From Bacillus sp. PK3_68 (GTDB taxonomy: Bacteria > Bacillota > Bacilli > Bacillales > Domibacillaceae): a stretch of DNA of 64,000 nucleotides. Shown here piece by piece: positions 33,225 through 55,652 of the stretch. A program made the position numbers and the translations under genes. Within the stretch, counting starts at the first letter, position 1. Each line of letters starts with the position of its first letter. The notes beneath the pieces are model-generated. The model saw only the letters and a list, made by a program, of their open reading frames with translations, ran no database searches and was not told the origin of the DNA. The stretch is from NCBI RefSeq assembly GCF_003600835.1, contig NZ_NQYC01000001.1, forward strand, positions 3,324,001 through 3,388,000. The letters run 5' to 3'.

Positions 33225-33490
33225 ATTCAGTGATAAAGTAACTTATGACGTTTTATATAAATAATATTGGCGTTCTGCTATGTTTTAGAAGTAACACTTA
33301 TTCAAACTGGCGCGGCCTCGGAGCCGCAAGGACTTAAGAGAAGGCAGGGCTTAGGTCGTTTAGGTTTACCATAGACGACGATGTAGAATATAACCGCGGC
33401 GGTTCATCTCATGAAAAAGCTTTTTCAGTCGAAGCGTTGTGAGTTACGAATAAATAAAAACCAATCTGACTCTAGTCAGATTGGTTTTTT
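33225..33490 (+). ncRNA. Candidate structured non-coding RNA, about 265 nt
   Basis: Bounded by the promoter at 33191-33219 and a strong terminator at 33456-33490. The ends can form a 13-bp closing stem: GTAACTTATGACG (33238-33250) pairs at every position (with G-U wobbles) with CGTTGTGAGTTAC (33435-33447). Inside are the hairpins GCGGC/GCCGC (33312-33327) and GACTTAAG/CTTAGGTC (33331-33357). The only frame of note, MTFYINNIGV..., is 30 codons with no ribosome-binding site. I see none of the hallmarks of SRP RNA, tmRNA, RNase P or a T-box. A 6S-like RNA is one possibility; the family is unassigned. Confidence 0.55.
33456..33490. terminator. Strong terminator closing the candidate RNA; also serves the minus-strand gene
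   Basis: AAAAACCAATCTGAC and GTCAGATTGGTTTTT form a perfect 15-bp stem with a TCTA loop and extra T's. Confidence 0.92.
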
Positions 33491-50933: not shown

Positions 50934-51841
50934 ATGCCGATTAATATACCGCAGGAATTACCAGCACGGGAGGTTCTGGAGAAAGAGAATATTTTCGTGA
51001 TGGATGTTGACCGGGCCCGCAGCCAGGATATCCGTCCTTTAAATATTTTAATTCTAAATTTGATGCCGGAAAAAGAAAAGACAGAAGCACAGCTTCTGCG
51101 GCTGCTCGGTAATACACCACTTCAAGTGAATGTATCTTTTTTGCATACGGCTACATATGAATCAAAGAATGTTAGCAGGTCTCATTTAGAGCAATTTTAT
51201 ACGACATTCGAGGAAGTACAGGACAGACGCATCGACGGTATGATTATTACTGGCGCGCCCATTGAACTGATGGACTTTGAGGAAGTCAACTATTGGGAAG
51301 AGTTGAAAGAAATCATGGATTGGGCTAAAACAAATGTTACGTCCATGCTGCACATTTGCTGGGGGCCCAGGCTGCTCTTTATCATTATTTTGGCATCGGA
51401 AAGTTCGAATTACCTGAAAAGTGTTCTGGAGTTTTCAGCCATGTAGTGAATGAGCCGACTGTAAAATTAATGCGCGGCTTCGATGACATCTTTTATGCGC
51501 CGCATTCTCGTTATACAGACGTGGAAAAGGAGCAAATTGAGGCGCACGAGGATTTGCAGCTTTTGGCTTATTCTGAAGAAGCAGGAGCATTTATCATTAT
51601 GTCAAAAGATGAACGTCATGTCATGATTACAGGACATCTGGAATATGAGGCGAAAACCCTTGCTGAAGAATATGAGCGGGATTTAGCGAAGGGGCTCGAG
51701 ATTCACATGCCAAAAAATTATTTCCCGGACAATAATCCGACAAAAAAGCCTGTTAATAAATGGCGTTCACATGCTCACTTATTATTCTCCAACTGGCTAA
51801 ACTATTATGTATACCAAGAAACGCCGTATGAGTGGGATTGA
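50934..51841 (+). pseudogene. metA: Homoserine O-acyltransferase MetA, split by a one-base frameshift
   Basis: Together the two frames give a 302-residue MetA, which acylates homoserine to start methionine synthesis (acetyl- or succinyl-CoA not decided here). The first part ends in MLHICWG; the second resumes at [25 protein letters not shown], carrying on through [11 protein letters not shown] to the end. Adding one G to the GGGGG run at 51361-51365 restores HICWGAQAALY, the highly conserved catalytic-cysteine motif. The start ATG at 50934 follows GAGGGGG. MetA is usually the sole entry to methionine, so a true inactivation would be costly unless another pathway exists. Confidence 0.85.
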
Positions 51842-51891: not shown

Positions 51892-51951
51892 TTATCGTTA
51901 ATGAAAAAGACACCCGGGAAATTTCCCGGGTGTCTTTTTCATTAACGATAA
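51892..51951. terminator. 60-bp perfect palindrome between metA and mtnU
   Basis: The 30-base half 51892-51921 (TTATCGTTAATGAAAAAGAC then ACCCGGGAAA) is the exact reverse complement of 51922-51951, without a spacer. It contains GACACCCGGG and CCCGGGTGTC arms followed by TTTTT on both sides. It covers the last three codons and the stop of mtnU. Confidence 0.9.
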
Positions 51952-52727
51952 AACTCTGGCCGACGATCTTCAAAAACAGGAATCCGTTTTCTTATTTCTG
52001 ACACTTTTGCAAGATCAATTTCTCCAATGAGCAGCTCTTCTCCCTCACCCGCTTCAGCAATAATCTCTCCCCATGGATCAATGATAAGGGAATGTCCGGC
52101 GAATTTGTTTTTAGGATCTTCACCGCTTCGGTTACAGCCAACAACATAGCTTTGGTTTTCAATTGCCCTGGCGATGAGCAATGTGCGCCAATGGTCTGTG
52201 CGGGCAAGAGGCCATTCTGCTGGGATAAACAACACATTTGCCCCTGCAAGTACGTGCTTTCTTAACCATTCTGGAAAGCGAATGTCGTAGCAAATGAATG
52301 CAGCCATTTTCTCATTTTCAAGTGTAAATAAGCCATCTTCTTTTCCTGCCTTCAAAAACTTTTCTTCTTCCATGAGACGGAATAAATGCAGCTTGCTATA
52401 TTGTTTTAATAATTCTCCTTGCTTGTTTATTACAAGCAACGTGTTTTCTACACCATCGTCTGTTTGGTTAGCTATCGAGCCGCCAATCAAGTGCATTTGA
52501 TGTTTCTTAGCTTGCTCCGATAAAAAAGCAATGGATTCTTGCGCCTGTCTATCTGCAATTTCGTCAAGCCGTGTTAAATCATAACCTGTTGTCCAGAGTT
52601 CAGGCAGCACTGCTAATTGACAGCCTTCATCGGCCGCTTTTTGCAGCCAATTTTCCACACGCCTGTAATTCTCTTGCGGGTTGCCAAAAGCAATATCCAT
52701 TTGGATGACAGCAGTTTTCAATATCAT
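51942..52727 (-). CDS. mtnU: Carbon-nitrogen hydrolase, MtnU-like
   Basis: A 261-residue nitrilase-superfamily amidase. The catalytic triad is visible: Glu in VLPELWTTG, Lys in YSKLHLF and Cys in AAFICYDIRFPEW. The long frame opens at 52892, but the family-typical start MILKTAVIQMD is at 52727 with GTGGAG before it. It matches Bacillus MtnU, proposed to hydrolyse alpha-keto-gamma-methylthiobutyramide to the keto acid in methionine salvage. It is divergent from mtnE, as in Bacillus. Confidence 0.87.
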   Translation of the reverse strand: MILKTAVIQMDIAFGNPQENYRRVENWLQKAADEGCQLAVLPELWTTGYDLTRLDEIADRQAQESIAFLSEQAKKHQMHLIGGSIANQTDDGVENTLLVINKQGELLKQYSKLHLFRLMEEEKFLKAGKEDGLFTLENEKMAAFICYDIRFPEWLRKHVLAGANVLFIPAEWPLARTDHWRTLLIARAIENQSYVVGCNRSGEDPKNKFAGHSLIIDPWGEIIAEAGEGEELLIGEIDLAKVSEIRKRIPVFEDRRPEFYR

Positions 52728-52823
52728 TTCAGCTCCACTTCCCTTTCCGAAAATTCTTACTTTACTTTCTCTCCCTTTCGTTATACCATTATTAACTATA
52801 ATTTGAAAGCGGGGGCTGCATAC

Positions 52824-54020
52824 ATGAAGACTTTTGAAACAGCTAATCGGCTTCAGGCTCTGCCGGAGCAATTCTTCGCTAAATTGGGCCAAAAGATCAA
52901 AGACGCCTCTACTGGCGGGCGTGAAATTATAAATTTAGCACAGGGAAGCCCAGATCAACCGGTGTTTAGCCATATAAAGACTGTGTTGAAAACAGCTGTG
53001 GACGATCCTGCCAACGATAAATATCCACCTTTTAAAGGGTTTGATCATGTAAAAGAGGCCTGTGCCGAGTTTTATCAGAAAGAGTATGGGGTAGAAATAG
53101 ACCCTGCCAGGGAAGTAGCCCTTATTATCGGCGGCAAGGCAGGGCTTGTTGAGCTTCCACAATGTTTGTTAAACCCAGGTGATGTAGCGCTTGTACCCGA
53201 TCCAGGCTACCCGGATTACTGGTCAGGCATTGCTCTTGCCGGCGCAGAAATGTATATGATGCCGCTAAGAGAAGAGAATGGTTTTCTTCCCCGGTATGAA
53301 GATGTTCCTGAAGAGATATTGAAAAAGACAAAGCTGCTGTTCATCAATTATCCCAATAATCCAACGGGGGCTATGGCGGACGCCGCTTTTTTTGAGGAGA
53401 CTATTCAGTTTGCTAATCAGCATGGGATTTGTATCGTTCATGATTTCGCTTATGGAGCGATCGGTTTTGATGGGAAAAGGCCGGTTAGCTACCTTGAAAT
53501 TGATGGGGCAAAAGAGATCGGCATCGAAATCTACACAATGTCAAAAACATACAATATGGCAGGCTGGAGAGTTGGGTTTGCTGTTGGCAACCCGAGCGTG
53601 ATCGCCGCTATAGATTTAATTCAAGATCATTTACACTGCAGTTTGTACGGCGGCATTCAGGAGGCTGCGGCCGCGGCTTTACTCGGGCCGCAAGATGAGG
53701 TGCATAAACAACAAGCCATGTATGAAAAGCGCCGCGACTTGCTCATTAATAGCTTGAATGAAATTGGTTGGGAAGTGACGGCACCGGAAGGGTCATTTTT
53801 TGCATGGTTAAAGGTGCCAGAAGGCTATACCTCTGAAGGATTCAGTGACCTTTTACTTGAAGAAGCAGGCGTCGCGTTTGCACCGGGAATTGGCTTCGGC
53901 GAACGCGGGGAAGGGTATGTCCGCGCTGGATTGGTAGCTTCAGAAGAAAAGATCAAAGAAGCCGTGCGTCGCATTTCGCAACTTTCTATTTTTAAAAATC
54001 AGGTTGACAATCGATTATAA
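52824..54020 (+). CDS. mtnE: Aminotransferase MtnE-like (methionine salvage)
   Basis: A 398-residue class I PLP aminotransferase. The PLP lysine is in YTMSKTYNMAGWRVGF; other family segments are NYPNNPTGA, HDFAYGAIGFDG and GYVRAGLV. It transaminates 2-keto-4-methylthiobutyrate to methionine in the salvage route, paired with the divergent mtnU. The frame opens at 52617, but the MKTFETANRLQALP start at 52824, with GGGGG upstream, fits the family. An S-box does not precede it here; one follows it instead. Confidence 0.87.
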   Translation: MKTFETANRLQALPEQFFAKLGQKIKDASTGGREIINLAQGSPDQPVFSHIKTVLKTAVDDPANDKYPPFKGFDHVKEACAEFYQKEYGVEIDPAREVALIIGGKAGLVELPQCLLNPGDVALVPDPGYPDYWSGIALAGAEMYMMPLREENGFLPRYEDVPEEILKKTKLLFINYPNNPTGAMADAAFFEETIQFANQHGICIVHDFAYGAIGFDGKRPVSYLEIDGAKEIGIEIYTMSKTYNMAGWRVGFAVGNPSVIAAIDLIQDHLHCSLYGGIQEAAAAALLGPQDEVHKQQAMYEKRRDLLINSLNEIGWEVTAPEGSFFAWLKVPEGYTSEGFSDLLLEEAGVAFAPGIGFGERGEGYVRAGLVASEEKIKEAVRRISQLSIFKNQVDNRL

Positions 54021-54032
54021 TCATGTAATAAT
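54004..54032 (+). promoter_or_regulatory. Promoter of the S-box transcript, inside the end of mtnE
   Basis: TTGACA (54004-54009), 17 bases, AATAAT (54027-54032). The -35 box lies in the last codons of mtnE. It would start a transcript about 85 bases before the SAM riboswitch. Confidence 0.55.
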
Positions 54033-54125
54033 TCGTATGAATTAATAAATTAATGCGTAAATTCAGAGTGTAAATAGAATTTTACTTCAGCCAGCTTAAG
54101 GCTGATGAATTGAATAGAAACGAAT

Positions 54126-54280
54126 ATCTTATCAAGAGCAGGTGGAGGGACAAGCCCGATGAAGCCCGGCAACCGACCCGTATGTATACATGCAGGCACG
54201 GTGCTAATTCTTGCAGCGCAAGCTGACAGATAAGAGAGTGGAATAGCTACCAAACCTCTTCTTATCTGAAGAGGTTTTTT
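54126..54280 (+). promoter_or_regulatory. S-box (SAM-I) riboswitch with terminator
   Basis: The aptamer starts CTTATCAAGAGCAGGTGGAGGGA and carries the conserved GATGAAGCCCGGCAACC core. It closes with GATAAGAGAG, whose GATAAG pairs with the opening CTTATC (P1). Downstream, AACCTCTTC and GAAGAGGTT with a T-run form the terminator (54253-54280). Its left arm can pair instead with the P1 3' strand as antiterminator. So high SAM should stop transcription before the next gene. Confidence 0.95.
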
Positions 54281-54316
54281 ATTTTGTTTTTATTGTTAAA
54301 AAGGGAGGAATGGAAA

Positions 54317-54859
54317 ATGACAGTGACAGACCAGAAAGGACTTGCAAAAGATCGCATTTTAGAATGGAGTATATCAGCAGAAAGTTTTTTAGAAACAGCT
54401 AGCGTTCAACAGAACGAAAGTATTTTATGGATAGGATCAGCTTCAACTCCTTCACTAACAAGATGGGTGAGTGAAAGAACTCAGATTACTGTAATTTCTC
54501 CTTCCCTTTTTACTTCTAAAAAAAGTCAATTCGATGTAGCAGCAGCTCAGCTTGGCATCCATTTTTTGGATGAGGGAGAAGAATGGCTGAGAAAAAGTTT
54601 TCATTTACTGAAGCCGGGAGGCCGTCTTATCATCGATTTAGCCGAAGCCATTACACTGGAGAACATAGAGGGAAAAAATTATATTAAAAGCCTCCCCGAT
54701 TATTGGGATCTTTTAAGAGAAATTGGATTTGAAGCAATATTTGTTCAACAGATAACAGTCCGTTCCCTTGCAGAAGCAATGGAACAGGGATGGATAGAGC
54801 TGACAGAAAGAGCGATGTTCCCGGCTGTTGTGAATCGCTTTATTGCTTTGAAAGGTTAG
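54317..54859 (+). CDS. Methyltransferase-like protein controlled by the S-box, function unknown
   Basis: A 180-residue protein shaped like a class I SAM methyltransferase: ILWIGSASTPSLTRWVSE at the motif I position, then SQFDVAAAQLGIHFLDEGEEWLRKSFHLLKPGGRLIIDLAEA, the usual post-motif strand. But motif I lacks the GxGxG glycines. It may bind SAM weakly, bind another ligand, or be a non-catalytic relative. A GGGAGG eight bases before the ATG fixes the start. It has its own promoter and SAM riboswitch, so it is expressed when SAM is low, which points to methionine or SAM supply. I cannot name the reaction. Confidence 0.75.
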   Translation: MTVTDQKGLAKDRILEWSISAESFLETASVQQNESILWIGSASTPSLTRWVSERTQITVISPSLFTSKKSQFDVAAAQLGIHFLDEGEEWLRKSFHLLKPGGRLIIDLAEAITLENIEGKNYIKSLPDYWDLLREIGFEAIFVQQITVRSLAEAMEQGWIELTERAMFPAVVNRFIALKG

Positions 54860-55652
54860 TAAGATAACGAGCCGTAAAGTCGATGAGTGGTCGGATTTCG
54901 ATAAGCTTGCAAGCGGCTTGAGCAACTGTGCCATTTGTCATTGTGTGTTCCTTCTCGAAGGCTCGGCCAATTTCATTAAATTGTTCAGAGTTTTCTTCAA
55001 GCTCCATATAAGTTTTCCAAATGCGCTCACCATTTTCTAGCATGGCTGAGCCTTGCTCAAAAGCTTTACGGCCGTCATCTGCCCGAAATTCACCAAGGTG
55101 CATAGCTGTACACGTGCTGTAATCCGTACCGATAAATAAAACGGATGCATCAAGATCATATAACCTTGCAAGCGGCGATTGCTCTCCAAATGCAAAGTCA
55201 ATCGAGTGGTTATCGATAATGAAGGAAGCATATTTTCCCCAGGCTGTAAATGAGCTGGAAGGATGGAGGCTCCGTTTTACACCGGGAAACGTACGGAATA
55301 ATTCCGCGATACGCCCCATACCAACAGTAGGAGTGATATCTGGTAAATAGGCAGGCATAAAATACCGGATACCTGGCCACCACTCTTCGGGTACAGGCGG
55401 ATTTTGCCAATATTTTGGATCGGTATTATGAGTAGTCTGCGAAGGCATAACAATTGTCCCGCTATTCGAAACAGCGGCCATTAATGCTTGAATGACGGTA
55501 ACTTCTCCGCCAGCTATCCACCCGAGTGAGCGCAGGGAAGAGTGTACCATAACAGTCGAACCAGGTTTTATTCCAAGAGAATGAAGGTCTTTTTGCAATG
55601 TCTCTGTAGTAATGAATGATTCTGTTTGTTGAACTAAATGATTACCTGTCAT
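54840..55652 (-). CDS. Aminoglycoside N(3)-acetyltransferase-family protein
   Basis: A 270-residue member of the AAC(3) antibiotic N-acetyltransferase family, with the N-terminal MVHSSLRSLGWIAGGEVTVIQAL and the HPSSSFTAWGKYA signature in the acetyl-CoA site. B. subtilis YokD and B. cereus relatives share the fold. Some of these acetylate aminoglycosides, others act on unrelated amines, so resistance should not be assumed. Its 3' end overlaps the S-box-controlled gene by 20 bases, tail to tail. Confidence 0.85.
   Translation of the reverse strand: MTGNHLVQQTESFITTETLQKDLHSLGIKPGSTVMVHSSLRSLGWIAGGEVTVIQALMAAVSNSGTIVMPSQTTHNTDPKYWQNPPVPEEWWPGIRYFMPAYLPDITPTVGMGRIAELFRTFPGVKRSLHPSSSFTAWGKYASFIIDNHSIDFAFGEQSPLARLYDLDASVLFIGTDYSTCTAMHLGEFRADDGRKAFEQGSAMLENGERIWKTYMELEENSEQFNEIGRAFEKEHTMTNGTVAQAACKLIEIRPLIDFTARYLTNLSKQ

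Follow-up and report, generated by a model that had tools for sequence, protein, structure and literature searches.

A SAM-I riboswitch of Bacillus sp. PK3_68 and its relatives precedes a conserved protein with a degenerate methyltransferase fold

S-box (SAM-I) riboswitches mostly control genes for the synthesis, import and recycling of methionine and S-adenosylmethionine (SAM); at low SAM an antiterminator forms in the leader and the gene is transcribed. Here we analyse an S-box leader and the gene behind it, termed X, in a stretch of 64,000 nucleotides from Bacillus sp. PK3_68 (Domibacillaceae; contig NZ_NQYC01000001.1, positions 3,324,001 to 3,388,000, hereafter the window). The leader shares with the SAM-I class (RF00162) the aptamer, the P1 switch, the antiterminator and the terminator, whereas the gene that it controls matches no methionine, SAM or salvage enzyme in Pfam or NCBIfam. 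The switch is a known one and the gene a new one; its product has a degenerate form of a known fold and is unnamed in the libraries searched.

The protein can be compared with two described systems. The N-terminal methyltransferase-like domain of anamorsin/Dre2 (4m7r, 2yui) is near X in size and is itself a degenerate methyltransferase fold. According to the accessible part of PMC3440578, SAM binding was undetected for Dre2 (data not shown there), and Dre2 is without strand 1 and helices Z and A, whereas X instead lacks strand beta-3. For Ciapin1 SAM binding is likewise reported as undetected. The trypanosome prozyme, a dead paralogue, activates AdoMet decarboxylase (PMC5201418, in the portion available); by analogy, X might be another dead relative that regulates SAM metabolism, but the prozyme belongs to another enzyme family and another organism, and its partner is known. 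In Bacillales various SAM-riboswitch genes have only putative functions according to the available part of PMC3766115, in which X is not named, and the portions at hand of PMC6302742 and PMC2211319 contain nothing on it. A literature search, with most subscription journals outside its coverage, found no account of a degenerate methyltransferase controlled by an S-box.

The leader lies on the forward strand. RF00162 matches positions 54126-54236 at full length (model 1-108) with 72.3 bits against a gathering threshold of 44.4 (E = 5.7e-15). Upstream, a promoter-like TTGACA-17-AATAAT with a TG before the second hexamer (54004-54032, 11 of 12 positions) stands in a region with five such sites where 2.1 are expected; 21 of the 22 leaders have TTGACA-17-[AC]ATAAT at 31-93 nucleotides 5' of the aptamer, a count made without a shuffle control, and none was found in the leader of L030. 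An intrinsic terminator hairpin follows at 54252-54277, and after it the T-run TTTATTTT; our own-built finder detects a terminator in all 22 X leaders, and none of 1100 shuffles matches the real score. The antiterminator (54227-54268) joins the 3' strand of P1 to the 5' arm and loop of the terminator and folds at -15.0 kcal/mol when the 3' arm is excluded, as the alternative to P1 (54127-54133 paired with 54229-54235). With the same exclusion antiterminators of -7.7 to -15.0 kcal/mol form in all 22 leaders.

The aptamer is further supported by its pairing pattern. Two of the 22 leaders are identical to each other (L032 and L033). Over 21 distinct leaders, P1 and P3 together have 94.2% of their cells paired, against 39.9-48.3% when slid (P1 99.3%, P3 87.5%), and 24 of these cells carry changes on both sides compared with 9.1 in shuffles (0 of 500 reach it). 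Coarser covariation counts do not exceed the shuffles (pairs with both-side changes, 5 versus 4.4; pair types, 14 versus 12.5). Most columns of the aptamer core are invariant. A ribosome-binding site read from the sequence, AAGGGAGG at 54301-54308, places GGGAGG 8 nucleotides 5' of the ATG. Judged by sequence, the leader carries all parts of a SAM-off transcription switch; a sequence-only reading of the window had identified its S-box core, switching helices and terminator correctly.

X itself occupies 54317-54859 on the forward strand (ATG at 54317, stop at 54859, 180 codons), and the proteins of its family measure 170-183 residues. In two confident AlphaFold models it keeps a minimal class I (Rossmann-like) methyltransferase core, the layout proposed in that first reading, from which strand beta-3 is missing; beta-3 is also gapped in the four X rows aligned with 15 methyltransferases. 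The LKPGGRLIIDL stretch corresponds to the beta-5 region. The glycine loop that had been described as lost (motif I, [DE]xGxGxG) is found in none of 22 X homologues, with a strict pattern that recovers nine of the 15 other methyltransferases, and by eye the four X rows have no D or E at the position where all 15 carry the D that ends beta-2. Because glycine loop, acid after beta-2 and beta-3 segment are all absent, ordinary SAM binding and methyl transfer by X are unlikely on the evidence of alignment and models, and for the same reason the previously suggested role as a SAM sensor has become less likely. While switch, fold, loss of the loop and the unusual nature of this S-box gene all held up, the roles proposed for the protein are tentative.

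Sequence searches agree with a protein outside the usual S-box regulon. The window X stays below every Pfam and NCBIfam cut-off, Methyltransf_11 is matched by 16 of 22 family members at E <= 0.1 (best 2e-07), and solved structures searched by sequence contain no close relative (best E 1.1e-06, to methyltransferases other than S-box enzymes), so that none of these three collections provides a close match to a characterised S-box enzyme. The nearest intact proteins are methyltransferases of the 3ccf type (L074, L075, L077-L080 and L083-L085 were compared). Their profile match to X has an E-value of 1.1e-16 over 144 columns, the Y..S...Y...GF and W positions are common to both, and 3ccf_A heads the hits of the second AlphaFold model, tied with others. 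In contrast to these proteins of 240-269 residues, X is missing two more segments in addition to beta-3, the acid of beta-2 and the glycine loop. Among the structures that Foldseek lists for the models, the template modelling (TM) score normalised to the target, a measure that favours small targets, was highest for the anamorsin domain. Homology to anamorsin was rejected: Pfam Anamorsin_N gives the window protein 11.8 bits at a cut-off of 27.1, X stops after the fold with no cysteine-rich iron-sulphur C-terminal domain, and the window protein is cysteine-free. The likeness is one of fold only, with no sequence membership.

X is present in 23 of the 24 genomes of the window's family, and an S-box stands directly 5' of it in 22 of the 23 loci; the remaining one, L022, is cut by a contig end no more than 60 bases from the start. 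Identity to the window protein is 68% in Bacillus wudalianchiensis, 62% in Bacillus badius and 48-49% in Bacillus sp. REN10, Bacillaceae bacterium SAS-127 and Bacillus sp. FJAT-42315, and the lowest value among X proteins is 32%. All 23 matches are free of stops, and the ratio of non-synonymous to synonymous substitution (dN/dS) over whole X is 0.03-0.19 in 13 pairs, which indicates purifying selection. A profile built from 22 distinct X proteins found no orthologue beyond the family in samples of 299 genomes of the order and 398 of the class. In the former, 23 genomes pass 1e-6, namely 11 family members and 12 with generic methyltransferases at 30-36 bits; in the latter, four pass 1e-8, all within the family. 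The A2 relatives were selected through the X profile and are thus a biased choice. By these comparisons, switch and X have been kept together through the family.

Conservation is strongest in the C-terminal part of X, while the N-terminal half is variable; E34, D107, E110, Y122, Y129, W130, Q145, W159, N173 and R174 are invariant. In methyltransferases the C-terminal part serves the substrate (PMC3440578, in the part available). Since this substrate-side part is the most conserved while the SAM half is degenerate, we favour, with a probability of about one half, a pseudo-methyltransferase that is made under SAM shortage and acts by binding a partner or ligand. Low SAM would allow the antiterminator to form and X to be made. 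X might then use its conserved C-terminal half, in which D107, E110, Y129, W130, Q145, W159, N173 and R174 are invariant, to bind a protein or a small molecule from sulphur or one-carbon metabolism, and by analogy with the prozyme this could raise SAM supply or spare SAM use. More tentatively, X may found a family of riboswitch-controlled pseudoenzymes, dead methyltransferases made at low SAM that bind SAM-making or SAM-using enzymes and thereby reprogramme them, with a switch inherited from mtnW and a fold inherited from a methyltransferase.

Several observations weigh against a binding protein of this kind. The loss of SAM binding is itself deduced from sequence and models, and no partner was found: an intact 3ccf-like methyltransferase, tried as an obligate partner and rejected, occurs in only 12 of 24 genomes (E <= 1e-40) and is absent from the window's own. 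Residues 30-63 evolve faster in genus g1 (dN/dS 0.39-0.73, four pairs). Besides the size bias of the TM score, ordering the listed structures by E-value puts the anamorsin domain only 34th and 29th, and the 50 rows of two other structure listings do not include it. The ancestry of the switch, described below, depends on a clade with a support of 0.525 under midpoint rooting, and two leaders before mtnW-size open reading frames (L144, L151) fall outside it. Finally, one genome of the family, G023, lives without X. G023 stands beside g1 in the TopB tree (0.904, paralogues included) and beside g2 in the MtnU tree (0.352), and because of these positions loss of X is more likely than its late gain.

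A rather unlikely alternative is that X is an enzyme whose methyltransferase fold supports new chemistry on a metabolite of the sulphur or one-carbon pathways, without SAM as methyl donor. The invariant polar and aromatic residues named above might together form a pocket, X is under purifying selection, and Foldseek lists SpnF (4pne), a cyclase on a methyltransferase fold. Enzymes of the SpnF type retain the SAM site, which counts against this proposal, and X does not track the salvage enzymes MtnW and MtnK. At a threshold of E <= 1e-30, MtnW is present in 19 and MtnK in 20 of the 24 family genomes. Four genomes (G001, G006, G014, G020) have X with both undetected, while G023 has both and no X. 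Dependence of X on methionine salvage was rejected on this co-occurrence, and X is therefore independent of the full pathway; three of the four genomes retain mtnE and mtnU beside X, so single salvage genes persist.

The origin of the switch bears on a second alternative. In four outgroup loci an S-box and mtnW occupy the place after mtnE that S-box and X hold in the family. In a midpoint-rooted tree of 71 aptamers, which omits the metK leader of the window genome and includes pattern-found leaders of partly unnamed genes, the smallest clade holding all 22 X leaders takes in eight others: the mtnX and mtnB leaders of the window genome, the four confirmed mtnW leaders of the outgroup and two that precede reading frames of mtnW size. 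The X leader thus groups weakly with mtnW-type leaders. It is likely that the salvage operon moved away and left its switch, under which X then came; a gene derived from a 3ccf-like methyltransferase would have replaced mtnW behind it. Locus position and leader clade would also suit a protein of unrelated function that merely inherited the mtnW leader, with SAM control of little weight, and X is dispensable in G023. We consider this unlikely, as most core columns are invariant in 21 leaders, and terminator and antiterminator are intact in 22 of 22, though the proteins diverge down to 32% identity.

That X still acts as a methyltransferase, with SAM bound at a divergent site and perhaps with the help of a partner protein, is very improbable. 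The fold, the methyltransferase-like beta-4/beta-5 region and the Methyltransf_11 matches speak for it, but the missing loop, acids (absent by eye from the motif I and beta-2 positions) and beta-3 segment do not, and a SAM-consuming enzyme would be an odd choice of gene for a switch opened by low SAM. A decaying gene or false reading frame next to a leftover riboswitch, to which the variable N-terminal half and a nearby metA split over two frames might point, conflicts with frames free of stops in all 23 genomes, with the dN/dS values and with the two confident models, and is largely refuted.

The usual gene order around X is metA, mtnU (reverse), mtnE, S-box, X, an acetyltransferase gene (reverse), pabB, pabA and pabC. 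Directly 5' of the leader lies an aminotransferase that we take to be MtnE (52617-54020, forward, longest open reading frame; PRK08068 619.7 bits, cut-off 494; supported by synteny), with a true start probably further in than 52617. A carbon-nitrogen hydrolase, presumably MtnU, is encoded on the reverse strand at 51942-52892 (longest open reading frame; PF00795, 3.8e-55). Tail to tail with X, and overlapping it by 20 bases, is a gene of the aminoglycoside 3-N-acetyltransferase family (54840-55652, reverse), which scores under the curated NCBIfam AAC(3) cut-offs, so that resistance cannot be read from it. This gene is found in the g1 to g3 loci examined, in L040 only as a 92-codon piece; L038 has three genes inserted between pabB and pabA. 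metA of the window is split over overlapping frames (50934-51446 and 51356-51841, forward), whereas in most relatives the gene is a single frame of 302 to 334 codons; this is either an assembly error or a real pseudogene.

In the loci of genus g4 that were examined, S-box and X are retained while mtnE is gone from 11 of 11 loci and the acetyltransferase gene from 10 of 10 (L050 ends after X). Ten loci (L041-L049 and L051; g4 comprises 13 genomes) were examined for the junction with pabB. In all ten, pabB runs in the same direction as X and starts 63-73 nucleotides after it, and our finder detects no terminator at these ten junctions. As pabB adjoins X in this way, the folate-precursor (p-aminobenzoate) genes of g4 may share SAM control by read-through from the S-box. 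A conserved CCGTATTATGAT, noted by eye, suggests that pabB has its own promoter too.

Nine S-boxes occur in the window genome, the X leader and eight further. These precede mtnX and mtnW, mtnB, a metI-like gene, a metY-like gene and metK and, by reading only, mtnD, metH/yitJ-like genes, a methionine-type ABC transporter and an NhaC-like transporter. The salvage genes lie about 75 kilobases away in rearranged order (L053:5865-15917); one S-box stands ahead of mtnX and another ahead of mtnB, and transporter-like genes, identified by reading, lie between mtnB and mtnK-mtnA. The metI-like gene (L054:4382-5245) has 287 codons and covers 1-282 of a 369-position model; it may be broken or misassembled, as a second methionine gene of this genome so affected. 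The window further contains a match to the small RNA BsrC (33282-33368, reverse; 60.6 bits, E = 4.4e-08).

Among the S-box genes of its genome, X is the odd member. A conserved S-box gene with a product apparently unable to use SAM would show that the use of SAM is controlled at one more level. Gene and switch together point to an unexplored response to SAM shortage, the regulatory logic of which can be read from the RNA itself.
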